The notes under the pieces are model-generated. The model did not search any database. It was not told the DNA's origin and saw nothing but the letters and a program-made list of their open reading frames with translations. A program made the position numbers and the translations under genes. Of a stretch of DNA of 64,000 nt, positions 49,376-63,215 are shown piece after piece. This DNA is from Streptomyces sp. SCUT-3 (lineage in GTDB: Bacteria > Actinomycetota > Actinomycetes > Streptomycetales > Streptomycetaceae): positions 3,758,501 to 3,822,500 of the forward strand of contig NZ_CP046907.1 in assembly GCF_014083985.1 (NCBI RefSeq). The letters run 5' to 3'. Numbering within the stretch: the first letter of the stretch is position 1; the number at the start of each line of letters is the position of its first letter.

Positions 49376-50236
49376 TCAGACGTCGAGCTTCTGCCATGCC
49401 TCCAGGCGCTGCAGGGCGAAGATGTCCTGGACGGAGGCGATGGAGTTCTCGACCGCCGTGGAGTCGCCGGTCTCGTAGACGGAGCGGTAGGTCTCGCGCA
49501 GCGCGCTGACGGTGGCGCGCAGCCCCTGGTTGGCGTAGATGACCACGGAGACGCCGGCCTGCTTGATCTCGTCGATGTGCCAGTTCGGATAGGTCGTCGG
49601 CACGATGACCACCGGGCAGCGGAAGTCCCAGCCCTCCAGGAACCCGACGATCTGGTCGCGGGTCTTCGTCTTGGAGTGGACGAGGACCGCGTCCGCGCCG
49701 GCGTCGGCGTAGGCGCGGCAGCGTTCGAGGGCCGCTTCGACGTCGAGCCCGCTGATGAGGGCCTCGGTGCGGGCGATGACGAACATCTCCCGGGTGGCCT
49801 GGGCCCCCTTGGCGATGCGGATCTTGTCGACGAACTCCTTGGTGCCGAGAAGGGTCTGACCGCCTGCGACGAAGCTGTTCATCTTGGGGAACAGCTTGTC
49901 CTCGATGCAGATCGCGGTGATGCCGGCCGCCTCGAACTCGTGGACCATGTGCGCCACGTTGAGGTTGCCGCCGTATCCGGTGTCGCAGTCGGCGACGACC
50001 GGGATCCGCAGCGCTTTTTGGATGTTGGCAGCCGCCTCGAGGTACTCGGTCATGCTCAGGATGCTCGCGTCGGGCAGAGCGCGTGACGCCGACACCTCGA
50101 GGCTGGACGACCAGACGGCCTGGAATCCGGCCTCCTCTGCGAGCAGCCCTCCGAGGGCGTGGTTGGCACCCGCCACACGAACAATTTCGTTCTCGGCCAG
50201 AACAGAGCGAAATGAAGGATAGGTGGACCGCTGCAC
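49376..50236 (-). CDS. pepM: Phosphoenolpyruvate phosphomutase
   Basis: A 286-residue isocitrate-lyase-superfamily enzyme that forms the C-P bond, turning phosphoenolpyruvate into phosphonopyruvate. The diagnostic PepM motif EDKxxxxxNS is EDKLFPKMNS (112-121). The Mg2+ aspartates are in VVADCDTGYGG (83-85), and the substrate contacts VWSSSLEVSASRALPD precede them. The start is GTG 50236, with AGGAG eight bases upstream. It is the first gene of the leftward half and defines the region as a phosphonate cluster. The 138-base leader from the inferred promoter carries three inverted repeats. Confidence 0.96.
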   Translation of the reverse strand: MQRSTYPSFRSVLAENEIVRVAGANHALGGLLAEEAGFQAVWSSSLEVSASRALPDASILSMTEYLEAAANIQKALRIPVVADCDTGYGGNLNVAHMVHEFEAAGITAICIEDKLFPKMNSFVAGGQTLLGTKEFVDKIRIAKGAQATREMFVIARTEALISGLDVEAALERCRAYADAGADAVLVHSKTKTRDQIVGFLEGWDFRCPVVIVPTTYPNWHIDEIKQAGVSVVIYANQGLRATVSALRETYRSVYETGDSTAVENSIASVQDIFALQRLEAWQKLDV

Positions 50237-50274: not shown

Positions 50275-50296
50275 TCGCGATCTGCGCCGTTCTGGG

Positions 50297-50330
50297 AATT
50301 GCTGTAGCAATTAATAGGCAATTCTTTGCC
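50297..50330. promoter_or_regulatory. pepM leader palindromes AATTGCT-GT-AGCAATT and GGCAA-N4-TTGCC
   Basis: Two perfect inverted repeats, at 50297-50312 and 50317-50330, in a locally AT-rich stretch between the inferred pepM -10 element and its start codon. The first is a 16-base near-palindrome of operator size. Both may be protein sites or leader hairpins. Confidence 0.5.
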
Positions 50331-50380
50331 CGGTCTTCAGTTGCCTTTAATCGGGCTTGTAGCCGGACGGCATGGGAGTG

Positions 50381-50409
50381 AAGGTAGGGCGGCGGCCCAG
50401 AGATGTCAA
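50381..50409 (-). promoter_or_regulatory. Inferred pepM promoter, TTGACA-17-TACCTT
   Basis: On the minus strand TTGACA (50409-50404) is followed after 17 bases by TACCTT (50386-50381). The -35 is the perfect consensus. The expected start near 50374 gives a leader of about 138 bases. It is back-to-back with the rightward promoter, five bases separating the two -35 elements. Confidence 0.55.
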
Positions 50410-50414
50410 CAGTC

Positions 50415-50443
50415 TTGTCAACGACTTGCCTACATGGTGCAAT
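50415..50443 (+). promoter_or_regulatory. Inferred promoter of the rightward half, TTGTCA-17-TGCAAT
   Basis: TTGTCA (50415-50420), 17-base spacer, TGCAAT (50438-50443). The -35 hexamer and the spacing match the promoters inferred before the peptide gene (61607) and the regulator gene (61894), suggesting common control. The expected leader before ATG 50497 is about 47 bases. Confidence 0.5.
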
Positions 50444-50496
50444 GCTTGCCGGGCCCGCCGTGGGTCACCGGGAATCCCAGAGAGGAACAGCAGAGA

Positions 50497-51468
50497 ATGA
50501 GCACCACGCTCGTACCCGCGCACCCCCGCACCCTGGAGGTTCCGACAGAGGCTTTCCACACCTTCTCCGAGCAGGCGCAGCGCGAGGTCGCCGCCTACGT
50601 CGCCCGGCTCGACCGGGACTTCCCCACGGGCCGCGTCGACGCGATCGACGTCGACCTCGGCGCCGTCCCGCTCTTCACGGCGGAGGTCGACGCCGTCCGC
50701 CACGTCGTCGACGACACCGTGCACTTCATCGTGTACGACCGCGTCGCCGGCGTGGACAGTCTCCGGGGACAGGCGCTGTACGCCTGGGTCCTCGGCACCG
50801 CCCTCGGCCGGCCCATGGTCCAGAACACCGACGGCTGGCGGCTGATCGAGGTCTACGACCGGGGCGTCCGCAGGACCATCGAGGACGGCGCCCGCTACCA
50901 CCAGACCAAGCAGGGCTCGTACATGCACAACGACGCCGTCAACGACGTCGACCCCATCGACTACCTGCTGCTGTCCTGCGGCCAGTCCGCCTACATCGGC
51001 GGCGAGAGCATCCTCGTGGACGCCAAGCCCGTCCACGAGGTCCTGGAGCGGCACCCGGACGTCCTCGCCGTCCTCACCCAGGACTTCTGGTTCGAGAAGC
51101 GCGGCATGTCGCTGTCGGAGGAGACCGGCTTCTTCCGCTCGCCGATCATCCGCTACACCGCGGACGGCGAACCCCTGGTCCGCTACTTCCGCACCTACAT
51201 CGAGGTCGCCCACGACAAGGTCGGCGAGCCCGTCACCGACGAGCAGCGTGCCGCGCTCGACTTCTTCGACGCCGTGCTCGACCAGTCCTCGGTGCAGTAC
51301 CGCGTCCGCCTGGAGCGCGGGCAGACCCTGGTCTCCGCCGACGACCGCTTCCTCCACACGCGCACGGCGTTCTACGACCGCTTCCCGCCCCGCGAGATCG
51401 ACATGGCCGGCGACCGGACGGACGAGGTCAACCGCTACATGTTCCGGATGTGGTCCACCAAGGCCTGA
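50497..51468 (+). CDS. Fe(II)/2-oxoglutarate-dependent dioxygenase (TauD/TfdA family)
   Basis: A 323-residue double-stranded beta-helix oxygenase. Iron ligands: HxD in GSYMHNDAVND (His144, Asp146) and distal His287 in DDRFLHTRTAFYDRF, followed by the 2-oxoglutarate arginine. GQALYAWVLGTALGRPMVQN is the typical N-terminal block. In phosphonate pathways such enzymes hydroxylate or desaturate aminoethyl- or hydroxyethyl-phosphonates, so C1 or C2 hydroxylation of 2-aminoethylphosphonate or of a Dap residue is the likely job. ATG 50497 is the start, with GAGAGGAA upstream. First gene of the rightward operon. Confidence 0.87.
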   Translation: MSTTLVPAHPRTLEVPTEAFHTFSEQAQREVAAYVARLDRDFPTGRVDAIDVDLGAVPLFTAEVDAVRHVVDDTVHFIVYDRVAGVDSLRGQALYAWVLGTALGRPMVQNTDGWRLIEVYDRGVRRTIEDGARYHQTKQGSYMHNDAVNDVDPIDYLLLSCGQSAYIGGESILVDAKPVHEVLERHPDVLAVLTQDFWFEKRGMSLSEETGFFRSPIIRYTADGEPLVRYFRTYIEVAHDKVGEPVTDEQRAALDFFDAVLDQSSVQYRVRLERGQTLVSADDRFLHTRTAFYDRFPPREIDMAGDRTDEVNRYMFRMWSTKA

Positions 51469-51516
51469 CGGCCCCCCGCCGCGCCCGAACATCCCGAATT
51501 GCCAAGGAGACCAACG

Positions 51517-52890
51517 ATGCACCCGCGTGAGGCCCTCCGGGCGGTGGGCCACGACCTGGCCGCCGAGCTCCGGCGGAACCGCCCGAAGGACCAGTTGGCC
51601 GCGTCCGGCGAGGTGCAGGCCTGGCACCGCACCAGCGGCCGGCTCGCCGAGGGCCGCGTCAGCGACATCAGCGTGCAGTGGGGACAGGCCACCGCGGCGC
51701 GGTACGTCACGCGCGAGACGTTCCTGCACCGCTCCGTCTCCGGCTTCGACCCGTCCGTGGCCCGGACCGCCGCCGGGGGCGGCGGCACCGCCCCGGACGG
51801 CTCCCGGGCCGCCGGCGCCGGCCTCCACGACCCCGGGCCCGGCCGGGCCCCCGCCTGGACCGAACCTGGTGCGGCACTCACCGCCCTGCGCGAACTCGAG
51901 CAGGCCGCCCGCGACTTCGACCCCACCGTCGCCCAGGTCGTCATCGACTTCGAACTCGCCGAACAGGACCTCTGCCTCGTCGACTCCGAGGGCCTCGTGC
52001 ACGACGAGACCCGGCTGCTCAGCTACCTCACGGTCCGCGTCATCGCCCGCAAGGGCGGCCGCGTCGCCACCGGCTTCTACACCCCCGGCGTCAGCGGCCC
52101 CCTCTCCGGCATCGACATGCGTGCCGCCGGGGCCGAGGTCGCCCGCCGCGCCGTCACTGGCCTGGCGGCCCGGCCCGCCCCCGTCGGCCGGATGCCCGTC
52201 GTCGTCGCCGGCGGCCGCGGCATGGTCCTGCTCCACGAGGCGTGCTGCCACCCGCTGGAGGGCGACGAGGTGCTGCGCGGCTCCGTCTACGCCGGACGGA
52301 TGGGCGAGACCATCGCCTCCCCGCTGGTCACCCTCAGGGACGACCCCACCGTCCCGGGCGCCGTCGGCTCGTACGCCTACGACGACGAAGGGGTGCGTGC
52401 CACCCCCACCACCCTGATCGAGGACGGCGTCCTCACCGGCTGGCTCACCGACCAGGAGTCCGCTGCGCGGCTGGGCCTCGCACCGAGCGGCAACGGCCGC
52501 TGCACCACGGCCCTCCAGCCGCCCCAGCCGCGCATGACCAACACCTGTCTCGCCGCCGGCACCTCCACCGTCGACGAGATCATCGCCTCCACCGAGTACG
52601 GCATCTACGCCGAACACGTCGGCGGCGGCGAAGTCATCGAATCCACCGGCGAGTTCACCTTCCGGGTGACCAACGGCCATCTGATCGAGAACGGGCGGGT
52701 CACCGACCCCGTCGAGGAGACCACCATCACGGGAACGGGAACACAGGTGCTGAGGGACATCGACGCCGTCGCCGACGACAGCACGGTGGGCGCGGCCAAG
52801 TGCGGCAAGTTCGGCCAGTGGGTGACGGTCGGCGTCGTCGGACCGACTCTCCGGGTCGGCTCCCTCCTGGTGGGAGGCACGAACCGATGA
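51517..52890 (+). CDS. tldD: TldD-like metalloprotease subunit
   Basis: A 457-residue TldD/PmbA-family protein. The catalytic zinc motif HExxxH is HEACCH (240-245) in MVLLHEACCHPLEGDEVLRG, and the late cysteine block is KCGKFGQWVTVGVVGP. In E. coli TldD pairs with TldE in a heterodimer that trims unfolded or leader peptides inside a chamber. ATG 51517 has AAGGAGA upstream. It overlaps the TldE-like gene by 4 bases. The pair may remove a leader or protecting peptide or act on a phosphonopeptide; other chemistry is possible. Confidence 0.87.
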   Translation: MHPREALRAVGHDLAAELRRNRPKDQLAASGEVQAWHRTSGRLAEGRVSDISVQWGQATAARYVTRETFLHRSVSGFDPSVARTAAGGGGTAPDGSRAAGAGLHDPGPGRAPAWTEPGAALTALRELEQAARDFDPTVAQVVIDFELAEQDLCLVDSEGLVHDETRLLSYLTVRVIARKGGRVATGFYTPGVSGPLSGIDMRAAGAEVARRAVTGLAARPAPVGRMPVVVAGGRGMVLLHEACCHPLEGDEVLRGSVYAGRMGETIASPLVTLRDDPTVPGAVGSYAYDDEGVRATPTTLIEDGVLTGWLTDQESAARLGLAPSGNGRCTTALQPPQPRMTNTCLAAGTSTVDEIIASTEYGIYAEHVGGGEVIESTGEFTFRVTNGHLIENGRVTDPVEETTITGTGTQVLRDIDAVADDSTVGAAKCGKFGQWVTVGVVGPTLRVGSLLVGGTNR

Positions 52891-60912: not shown

Positions 60913-61542
60913 GTGGAGTACGAGGAGGTGACCACCGAGGAGGAACTGCGGGAGCTGGTCGGGCCGGCGAACCCCGTGGTGTTCCGCAAGGCGACGCCGG
61001 TTCTTCGCACGTACGAGAGCGAATGGATCCGGAACTCGCCTTTCTGCCTGATCGCGACCGCCGCGGCCGACGGGACGTGCGACGTCTCCCCGCGGGGCGA
61101 TCCGCCGGGGTTCGTGCGCATTCTCGACGAGCGGACGCTCGCGGTGCCCGACCGGCCGGGAAACCGCCGGCTCGACACCTTGCGCAACGTGCTGCAGAAC
61201 CCGAGGGTGGGAATGATCTTTTTGATTCCGGGGCGGGGCGACACGCTCCGGGTCAACGGCCGCGCGCGCCTGGTCCGCTCGGCCCCCTTTCTCGACGACA
61301 TGACGGTCCGGGGGAACCGGCCGGGGCTGGCCCTCGTGGTGAGTGTCGAGGAGTGCTACTTCCACTGCGCCAAGTCGTTCATGAGGGCGAGGCTGTGGGA
61401 CACGGACTCGTGGGCTCCGGAATCGGTTTCCTCGCGGGCCCGGATCGCCCGGGCGACGGAGTGGACCGAGGCCTCGCTGGAGTCCCTGGAGCGCCGCTAC
61501 GGCCCCGAGTACGAACAGCGTCTTTATCCCGGGTCCCCCTGA
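60913..61542 (+). CDS. PNPOx-like FMN-dependent protein
   Basis: A 209-residue pyridoxamine-phosphate-oxidase-fold protein of the MSMEG_1061-like type. The barrel blocks are SPFCLIATAAADGTCDVSPRGDPPGFVRILD and PDRPGNRRLDTLRNVLQNPRVGMIFLIPGRGDTLRVNGRARLV. These proteins bind FMN or F420 and act as oxidoreductases or heme-handling proteins. GTG 60913 is the start, 3 bases after the third ATP-grasp stop, so it belongs to the operon and is its last gene. It may oxidise or reduce a late intermediate. Confidence 0.82.
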   Translation: MEYEEVTTEEELRELVGPANPVVFRKATPVLRTYESEWIRNSPFCLIATAAADGTCDVSPRGDPPGFVRILDERTLAVPDRPGNRRLDTLRNVLQNPRVGMIFLIPGRGDTLRVNGRARLVRSAPFLDDMTVRGNRPGLALVVSVEECYFHCAKSFMRARLWDTDSWAPESVSSRARIARATEWTEASLESLERRYGPEYEQRLYPGSP

Positions 61543-61606
61543 GGAGTCGATGAAGATCCAGTGAAGCCGGTGTGTACGGGCCGAGAATTTTCTCCCTTGC
61601 CAACTC

Positions 61607-61635
61607 TTGTCAAATGTTCATCAGAATCGATATGT
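61607..61635 (+). promoter_or_regulatory. Inferred promoter of the peptide gene, TTGTCA-17-ATATGT
   Basis: TTGTCA (61607-61612), 17 bases, ATATGT (61630-61635). The sequence before the -35 (TTGCCAACTC) resembles the -35 itself, giving a direct repeat ten bases apart. It has the same hexamer and spacing as the promoters at 50415 and 61894. The leader before ATG 61685 is about 45 bases. Confidence 0.5.
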
Positions 61636-61684
61636 TGACACCGCTCCGCCGCAAGCGATCACTGAGTTCCGGCAAAGGATTTCC

Positions 61685-61819
61685 ATGAAGAAGACCTTGG
61701 TTGCTCGTGCATTGGCTCTCGCCTTTTTCGCTCTTCTCCTCGCGGGGACGCTGCCGGCGGGCGCGGGGGAGGCGCGGACCGCTGCCATCGGCGCCGGCAG
61801 CATGATCGACTGGCCGTAG
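61685..61819 (+). CDS. Small secreted peptide, candidate signal precursor
   Basis: A 44-residue protein starting at ATG 61685, with AAAGGA six bases upstream. It has a classic signal peptide: Lys2-Lys3, hydrophobic core ALALAFFALLLAG (9-21), and AGAGEA as probable cleavage region (about 26-30). Only 14-17 residues follow, ending GAGSMIDWP. It is too small for an enzyme. Position directly before an XRE-TPR regulator, with a promoter of the same type, suggests a peptide pheromone precursor. The start and frame are well supported; the role is inference. I do not recognise the family. Confidence 0.65.
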   Translation: MKKTLVARALALAFFALLLAGTLPAGAGEARTAAIGAGSMIDWP

Positions 61820-61893
61820 TCCGCCGCTCGCTCTTCGCTCGTTTCTGGAGTTGCGAGGCTCCCGGGGGTGCGGTTACCAACGCGAGTCAATCT

Positions 61894-61942
61894 TTGTCAC
61901 AATGTGTCGGGGGAGCTAGAATAGCTCCCCCGACACATTGTG
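61894..61942 (+). promoter_or_regulatory. Regulator promoter inside a 20-bp perfect inverted repeat
   Basis: TTGTCA (61894-61899), 17-base spacer, TAGAAT (61917-61922). A perfect inverted repeat, 61898-61917 and 61923-61942, is centred on the -10 element, with only AGAAT between the arms. It could be an autoregulatory operator or, in RNA, a hairpin ending the peptide transcript. No T-run follows on either strand. Confidence 0.6.
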
Positions 61943-61979
61943 TGGAGCATTGGACGAAACCCTCGAAGACGGTGGTCGC

Positions 61980-63215
61980 ATGCTGGAGCAACCTGGCTTT
62001 GGACGACGCCTGCGTCAACTGAGGCTGCAGCAGGGCAAGACCCAGGCGGAGCTGACCGGGCCGGGAATGTCCGCGGCGTACCTCTCCCGTCTGGAGTCGG
62101 GTGCCAGGTCTCCCACCCGGCGCGCCGTCGACTACCTCGCGGACCGCTTGGACGTCCCCGTCGAGAGCTTCACCGAGGACAGGGGGGACGACCTCTCGGA
62201 CCTCGTCGCGACCCTGGCGTCCCGGCCGGACGGTGAGCGTGACGCCGAGATGCGCGACCTCCTCGCGGACGGACTCGAGCGGGCCGCGGACGCGGACTCC
62301 TCGACCCGCTGGCAGGCGTTGGCCCTGCTCGCCCAACTGCACTCCTCGTTCGGGGAGTTTCCCGAAGAGCGCAACGTCCTCGAGGAACTGGCCAAGCTCA
62401 CCGAGGAACTGGCGCGTCCCGTGCTCCAGATCTACACGAAGCAGCGGGTGGCCCGGTGCGCCCGCAACCGCGGCGACATGGAGCTGGCCCGGCAGGCGGT
62501 CCGCGAGGCCCTGGAACTGGGCGAGCAGCACCGCGTCCGGGTCCCCGCCGCCGATCTGCTCCGCAGCCGGCTGCTCCTGGTCTCCGCGGAGGCGGAACTG
62601 GGCAACGTCGACGAGGCGAAGCGGCTCAGCCTCGACATCCTCGCCGCGCTGCCGTCCGAGCGGGGCGCCCTGACCGCCGAGGCGTACTGGACCGCCGCCA
62701 CCGTGAGCACCCGCCAGGGCGATGCCGAGGGGGCGCGCCGGTACCTGGACAAGGCGATCGACGCCCTGGACAGCCGGGAGGACATCACCCTCTGGATGCG
62801 GCTCCGGCTGGGAGCGGCCTCGCTCTGCCTCCAGAGCCTGCCGCCGAGACTGGACCGGGCGCAGGAGCTGCTGTCGGTCGTCGAACCGGTACTGGACTTC
62901 GCCGGGCCGCCGCGGCACCGCCAGGAGTTCCTCTTCCTCCGGGCCCAGGTGGCCTTCCAGCAGGGTGACTCCGGCCGCGCGGCCGAGCTCGCGGAGGAGG
63001 CCGGGAAGTGCCTCCAGCTCTTCACGTACCGTGACCGGATCCGCTTCCGGATCCTCCGGGAGAGGCTGGCCGCCCGCTCCGGCGACATGCACGCGGTGAC
63101 CCGGCTGAAGGAGCTCGCCACCGAGGTGCAGAGCACCCGGATGCCGGAACTCGTCGCCGAGGTGTGGCGGGCGGCGGCCGAGTGCGCCGCGGAGACCGTG
63201 CCGTCCACCCGCTGA
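61980..63215 (+). CDS. XRE-family regulator with TPR-like sensing domain
   Basis: A 411-residue protein starting at ATG 61980 (MLEQPGFGRRLRQLRLQQGK), with GGTGG upstream. The XRE helix-turn-helix covers residues 7-62 (GKTQAELTGPGMSAAYLSRLESGARSP). The remaining 340 residues are helical repeats of TPR type (for example RWQALALLAQLHSSFGEFPEE, ARQAVREALELGEQHR, AEAYWTAATVSTRQGDAEGA). This domain order is that of peptide-sensing RRNPP regulators (Rgg, PlcR, NprR). It lies 160 bases after a secreted-peptide gene and at the end of the phosphonate cluster, so it is the probable cluster regulator. Confidence 0.85.
   Translation: MLEQPGFGRRLRQLRLQQGKTQAELTGPGMSAAYLSRLESGARSPTRRAVDYLADRLDVPVESFTEDRGDDLSDLVATLASRPDGERDAEMRDLLADGLERAADADSSTRWQALALLAQLHSSFGEFPEERNVLEELAKLTEELARPVLQIYTKQRVARCARNRGDMELARQAVREALELGEQHRVRVPAADLLRSRLLLVSAEAELGNVDEAKRLSLDILAALPSERGALTAEAYWTAATVSTRQGDAEGARRYLDKAIDALDSREDITLWMRLRLGAASLCLQSLPPRLDRAQELLSVVEPVLDFAGPPRHRQEFLFLRAQVAFQQGDSGRAAELAEEAGKCLQLFTYRDRIRFRILRERLAARSGDMHAVTRLKELATEVQSTRMPELVAEVWRAAAECAAETVPSTR

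Follow-up and report, generated by a model that had tools for sequence, protein, structure and literature searches.

A candidate RRNPP-like peptide signalling cassette beside a phosphonate gene cluster in Streptomyces sp. SCUT-3 and its putative counterparts in other actinomycetes

Introduction

In the PlcR-PapR system of the Bacillus cereus group, a receptor with an XRE-type helix-turn-helix (HTH) and TPR repeats adjoins the gene of a short, exported-type pro-peptide with a conserved C-terminal part, and boxes lie before the peptide gene. The gene pair from Streptomyces sp. SCUT-3 described here has the same elements. It differs in that it belongs to another phylum and its sequence match to PlcR is limited to the HTH. 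The WP-type tail, the phased direct-repeat TTGYCAA arrays, the codirectional and divergent layouts and the multi-copy precursors also set the SCUT-3 family apart. With NprR-NprX and Rap-Phr the pair has in common a TPR superhelix (Z score of 24) and a pro-peptide with a C-terminal signal, but identity is low (8-14%), Rap has no DNA-binding domain, and no phosphatase activity is implied for the SCUT-3 regulator. ComR-ComS and Rgg-SHP of streptococci also combine the XRE-TPR architecture with short peptides, and XIP of the ComR-ComS system contains the acid-Trp motif DWW. ComS and SHP, however, lack a classical signal peptide, have other tails and belong to another phylum.

Extracellular signals that steer specialised metabolism are known from Streptomyces as well, in the gamma-butyrolactone systems and the oligopeptide imported via BldK (PMC11303876). 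Butyrolactones differ in being enzyme-made small molecules with TetR-type receptors, and no report of an XRE-TPR receptor encoded next to a pro-peptide gene was found for the BldK signal. A large survey of RRNPP systems covers Firmicutes and viruses only, actinobacterial signals being typically enzyme-made small molecules (PMC10075063), and a review from 2026 places RRNPP under Firmicutes, naming butyrolactones where it deals with Streptomyces (PMC13220807). Two studies of phosphonate clusters report LuxR or Crp/Fnr regulators (PMC11867202, PMC12723261). No description of an RRNPP-like system in Actinomycetota was found among the open-access papers searched, preprints and most subscription journals being outside the scope of the search.

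Results

The putative pro-peptide gene and the regulator gene

The window, meaning the whole analysed stretch of 64,000 nucleotides, contains a phosphonate cluster with pepM (PEP phosphomutase; Pfam PEP_mutase; 49376..50236, minus strand), a TauD-type dioxygenase gene (Pfam TauD; 50497..51468, plus strand), a PmbA/TldD-family gene and genes for LAL-type ATP-grasp ligases, a condensation-domain protein and a PPOX flavoprotein. The PPOX gene ends at 61542 and is followed by a 44-codon open reading frame (ORF) and then by the XRE-TPR gene. The PmbA/TldD metallopeptidase-family gene lies at 51517-52890 within the cluster and could have a role in biosynthesis or in peptide processing.

The putative pro-peptide gene occupies 61685..61819 on the plus strand and encodes MKKTLVARALALAFFALLLAGTLPAGAGEARTAAIGAGSMIDWP, with a basic N-terminus followed by a hydrophobic core. 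Residues 1-27 resemble a signal peptide in composition, with a cleavage-like AGA site at residues 25-27. The tail after this site has 17 residues, GEARTAAIGAGSMIDWP, including the conserved C-terminal IDWP. The original prediction of a 44-residue protein with a signal peptide and a short tail was thus borne out for the reading frame and, by composition, for the signal peptide. Its start of the ORF at 61607 had to be corrected, as this is an upstream in-frame TTG and the ATG at 61685 is the better start. The codon-position bias of the frame is weakly informative, and its middle part carries many nonsynonymous changes. The ORF is nevertheless more than a chance frame, because frame and IDWP are kept in three other species and equivalents stand beside divergent relatives of the regulator. 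A profile search with the peptide alone (three rows) returned close orthologues only, the remainder being signal-peptide noise, and the family was therefore traced via the receptor. A literature search with the letters of the motif gave unrelated text only.

The regulator, the proposed peptide receptor, has 411 residues (61980..63215, plus strand). The ATG at 61980, 160 bp past the peptide stop, is the preferred start; HTH_31/HTH_3 score above the Pfam cut-off and several TPR models match, in agreement with the predicted XRE protein with TPR-like repeats at this distance. Between the two genes lies a perfect 21-bp inverted repeat with a 3-base loop (GAA; 61898..61942) and a computed folding energy of -43 kcal/mol. 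It is probably a terminator, attenuator or leader hairpin, and about half of the related loci have strong hairpins of other sequence at the equivalent place. An operator role for the repeat was considered and set aside, since its sequence is not conserved and strong hairpins recur in part of the loci only.

Predicted fold of the regulator

An AlphaFold2 model of the regulator was built on a three-row alignment (mean pLDDT of 81.8) and consists of the HTH followed by a TPR superhelix up to residue 406. In a Foldseek search against PDB chains, the best match was PlcR in complex with PapR and DNA (E value of 1.6e-5), with NprR and Rap following closely and ComR and PrgX also among the matches listed. 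Realignment gave Z scores of 24 for NprR and Rap and of about 18 for AimR. The non-signalling TPR proteins APPBP2, APC/C, MalT and LGN match about equally well, so the fold is compatible with peptide binding but does not prove it. At the sequence level, matches between the regulator profile and ComR, PlcR and Rgg-like PDB chains were confined to the HTH or to residues 6-105, and the matches of the TPR part are generic TPR proteins. A comparison of the model with a viral fold library was uninformative.

The cassette in close relatives

The nearest relatives of the regulator, with 80-84% identity, were found in S. bikiniensis NRRL B-1049 (locus L034), S. californicus NRRL B-2098 (L035) and one other species (L172). 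Their peptides have 43-50 codons, start with MKKT.VAR, have a variable middle and end in IDWP, so that this tail is invariant across four species including SCUT-3. The peptide of locus L171 (genome G246) is identical to that of S. californicus. Where examined, ATP-grasp and PPOX genes lie upstream of the cassette in the close relatives, and cassette and cluster genes occur together in the four species.

Paired WP-tailed ORFs in Streptomycetaceae

A profile search with the regulator yielded 80 places, spread over 74 of the 395 Streptomycetaceae genomes, and about 9 kb around each was screened for small ORFs. The typical upstream ORF has a basic start, a hydrophobic stretch and the motif [ILV][DEGST]WP near or at the C-terminus, in some cases repeated. 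With a lenient filter, an upstream WP ORF was present at 56 of the 80 loci (38 with a signal-peptide-like start); the failures, put at about 40%, belong for the most part to the divergent clade. After dereplication of the loci, a strict filter retained WP ORFs at 28/68 loci upstream, 0/68 downstream and in 1/535 background windows. The Fisher p value of 2e-28 overstates the case because related loci are not fully independent, yet the regulators diverge to about 30% identity. The search for a conserved C-terminus beside XRE-TPR genes of other actinomycetes, which had been proposed as a check of the original prediction, was thus strongly positive.

Two layouts of the peptide gene were observed, each following the receptor tree. 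In the clade of SCUT-3 the gene is codirectional, 94-212 bp upstream, and the WP is nearly always terminal; by hand count, such an ORF is present at 23 of the 26 loci, and a receptor fragment accounts for one of the three loci without it. In the second large clade the gene is divergent and the motif is often repeated, with two copies per precursor at L106 and L116, three at L108 and four at L112; a precursor with five copies was found at L159 on an outlying branch. Elsewhere in the second clade, the WP ORFs are short and lack a recognisable signal peptide, or none was found.

Several single loci were conspicuous. ORFs 3' of the regulator carry six (L150) or three (L129) repeats of DIGWP/IDWP and resemble multi-copy pheromone precursors. 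At L113, L131, L152 and their relatives, WP ORFs of 18-42 residues with a GGAGGTTTTC-GTG start and no signal peptide lie near a small LuxR-type gene, and these very short ORFs are perhaps leaderless signals or decaying genes. In the region of L242, where one genome has two tandem receptors, no WP ORF was found. The cassettes of L094, L096 and L097 are divergent to a gene whose product looks like an NAD malic enzyme; these cassettes adjoin central metabolism and no obvious product cluster. At L101 and L102 a large NRPS-like gene is divergent to the WP-peptide gene, and the promoter region between the two contains operator-like boxes; here lies a further candidate for a peptide-controlled product cluster.

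Receptors paired with other tails outside Streptomyces

A 65-row profile was run on 297 genomes of the class, and receptor relatives with E values of 1e-25 or better were found in 63 of them. Most of these distant receptors are likewise accompanied by a small ORF of the exported type. It usually lies 50-320 bp upstream in divergent orientation and bears a tail other than the Streptomycetaceae type: WPxMCC, WCC, YCC, FCC, TCC, LDWPWI, a triple IGNWPDPM or a triple GGSWPTSQDPT. By strict count, ORFs ending in CC were present upstream at 22/37 loci, downstream at 6/37 and in 0/71 background windows (p of 2e-13). At L214, L252, L257 and L258 the receptor gene is flanked by a pair of CC-tailed exported-type ORFs, the downstream one being of the form APWNDD..CC. 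Three receptors from other classes of the phylum are accompanied by ORFs of 28-33 residues that end in FPWPK, FPGP and FPGCCG.

The receptor columns W111, W272, R245 and L114 are near-invariant among receptors with WP ligands but mostly differ in the other set; both sets retain W237, A259 and W396. Such co-variation of receptor residues and tails would fit ligand recognition, and shared ancestry alone could contribute to it.

Operator-like boxes at the cassette and the phosphonate promoters

The box TTGCCA/TGGCAA occurs within 600 bp upstream of the regulators at 64 of 70 loci, compared with 4.8% of background windows. Upstream of both the peptide gene and the regulator gene, boxes recur with spacings of 10-11, 20-22 and 31-34 bp, which places them on one face of the helix. 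Paired boxes were found upstream at 43/80 loci (46 kb) versus 20 occurrences in the remaining 682 kb. A search in the relatives outside Streptomyces yielded no resolved operator.

In SCUT-3 the direct repeat TTGCCAA-N3-TTGTCAA lies at 61597..61613 (plus strand), 72-88 bp before the start codon of the peptide gene. In a pattern search it was the sole copy with zero mismatches in the 6.08-Mb genome. With up to 2 mismatches the same strict tandem pattern gave no site at a phosphonate gene; it was too strict for spacings of 11-12 and a degenerate third box and was therefore replaced by a matrix scan. A half-site matrix was trained on all loci except the SCUT-3 clade, and the 64 kb were scanned for phased arrays. 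The highest score (31.2) was obtained at 50403, for the array ATGTCAA / TTGTCAA / TTGCCTA / TTGCCGG (50403..50452, plus strand) 45-94 bp before the dioxygenase start. The direct repeat before the peptide gene ranked second (26.5). The third rank (21.0) went to weaker boxes before the regulator gene, TTACCAA / GAGTCAA / TTGTCAC in 10-bp steps (61874..61900, plus strand). The fourth (18.3) was the region 50292-50347 on the pepM side of the gap, which includes the weaker boxes TAGGCAA / TTGCCCG / TTGCCTT (50315..50347). The next score was 14.1.

Local shuffling of the window, repeated 200 times, gave scores of at most 28.0, with a 95th percentile of 21.9. By this measure the dioxygenase array stands alone and the peptide promoter tops 95%, while the third and fourth ranks lie within the range of the shuffles and gain extra weight from position and conservation only: L171 and L172 have boxes at the position equivalent to 61874..61900, and TAGGCAA is conserved or nearly so in four species. 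The first three boxes of the dioxygenase array (TGTCAA..TTGTCAA..TTGCC) are kept in 4/4 species. Since the matrix was trained without this clade and the array is kept in four species, the cassette appears to be tied to pepM and the dioxygenase gene, its proposed targets, independently of the earlier idea.

A lone TTGCCAA box at 51499-51505, one of only four TTGYCAA copies in the 64 kb, stands directly 5' of the PmbA/TldD-family gene (51517) and overlaps its ribosome-binding region; it may be a chance occurrence.

Discussion

Several features that characterise RRNPP systems appear to be present in SCUT-3. Sequence and model point to a cytosolic receptor with an XRE-type HTH and a C-terminal TPR superhelix, the adjacent gene would encode a pro-peptide in the range of 10-100 residues with an export signal by composition, and the tail motif as the element kept across the family suggests a signal in the C-terminal part. 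The pair is probably a distant relative of these systems; the RRNPP-type pairing that had been predicted finds backing in comparative genomics, the predicted fold and the common operator-like box.

We propose, with a probability of about 0.78, that the pair is an RRNPP-like peptide signalling cassette forming a feedback loop by which phosphonate synthesis is coupled to cell density. The 44-residue pro-peptide would be exported via its signal peptide, trimmed to a short C-terminal peptide ending in IDWP and taken back up by an oligopeptide permease. Such re-import is plausible but not specific, given the import of a signal by BldK (PMC11303876) and eight SBP_bac_5 matches in the genome. In the cell, the peptide would be held in the TPR groove of the XRE-TPR protein, as fold and ligand/receptor co-variation suggest. 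Peptide binding would then alter the receptor at the TTGYCAA arrays, located by comparison, of the pro-peptide gene, of its own gene and of the divergent pepM and dioxygenase genes. This would close the feedback loop and link phosphonate synthesis to cell density. We put the odds of activation by the peptide, as in PlcR-PapR, over relief of repression at about two to one. The pair probably controls the phosphonate genes, and the original idea that a processed peptide times phosphonate production gains support as a model from the matrix scan and the dioxygenase array of the four species.

The small ORF might instead be the precursor of a secreted product, ribosomal or bacteriocin-like, with the XRE-TPR protein acting only as its transcriptional regulator and sensing something else. 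Ribosomal products too include small exported-type precursors with repeated cores, and ATP-grasp genes lie less than 4 kb from about a dozen loci of the family. However, no constant maturation enzyme stands beside the pair, and its neighbours are as different as malic enzyme, Ffh and an NRPS (products read by eye). The conserved element amounts to four residues, receptor residues vary with the tail, and operator-like boxes also precede the phosphonate genes, all of which makes such a precursor quite improbable. Small toxins are often accompanied by XRE regulators, and with its hydrophobic N-terminus the peptide could be read as a small membrane toxin repressed by the XRE protein, in a toxin-antitoxin or self-immunity pair. 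Against this, the polar tail rather than the membrane stretch is conserved, many precursors carry several copies of the motif, the model of the regulator has a full TPR superhelix and the boxes extend to the phosphonate promoters; a toxin is therefore very unlikely indeed.

A real signalling pair that regulates only itself and stands at the edge of the phosphonate cluster by chance would accord with the strict tandem pattern, which picks the peptide promoter alone in the 64 kb and has its sole perfect match genome-wide there. The independent matrix scan, the array kept before the dioxygenase gene and the linkage of cassette and cluster genes in four species speak against it, and we regard it as unlikely. 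The signalling cassette coupled to phosphonate synthesis is the reading that we prefer.

The same architecture with other tails appears to form a broad actinomycete family. It is fairly likely that this family amounts to a phylum-wide and so far undescribed peptide-pheromone language of actinomycetes, in which XRE-TPR receptors each have their own exported pro-peptide. Tails would be of the WP type in Streptomycetaceae, sometimes in multiple copies, and of the CC or another type elsewhere, and operator arrays would tie some of the pairs to specialised metabolism. Many known antibiotics come from Streptomyces and its relatives, in which many clusters lack a known switch. If the proposal is true, the inducer of a silent cluster would be predictable from sequence and testable with a synthetic 4-17-mer, and the family would provide concrete candidates for the peptides that are imported by permeases such as BldK.
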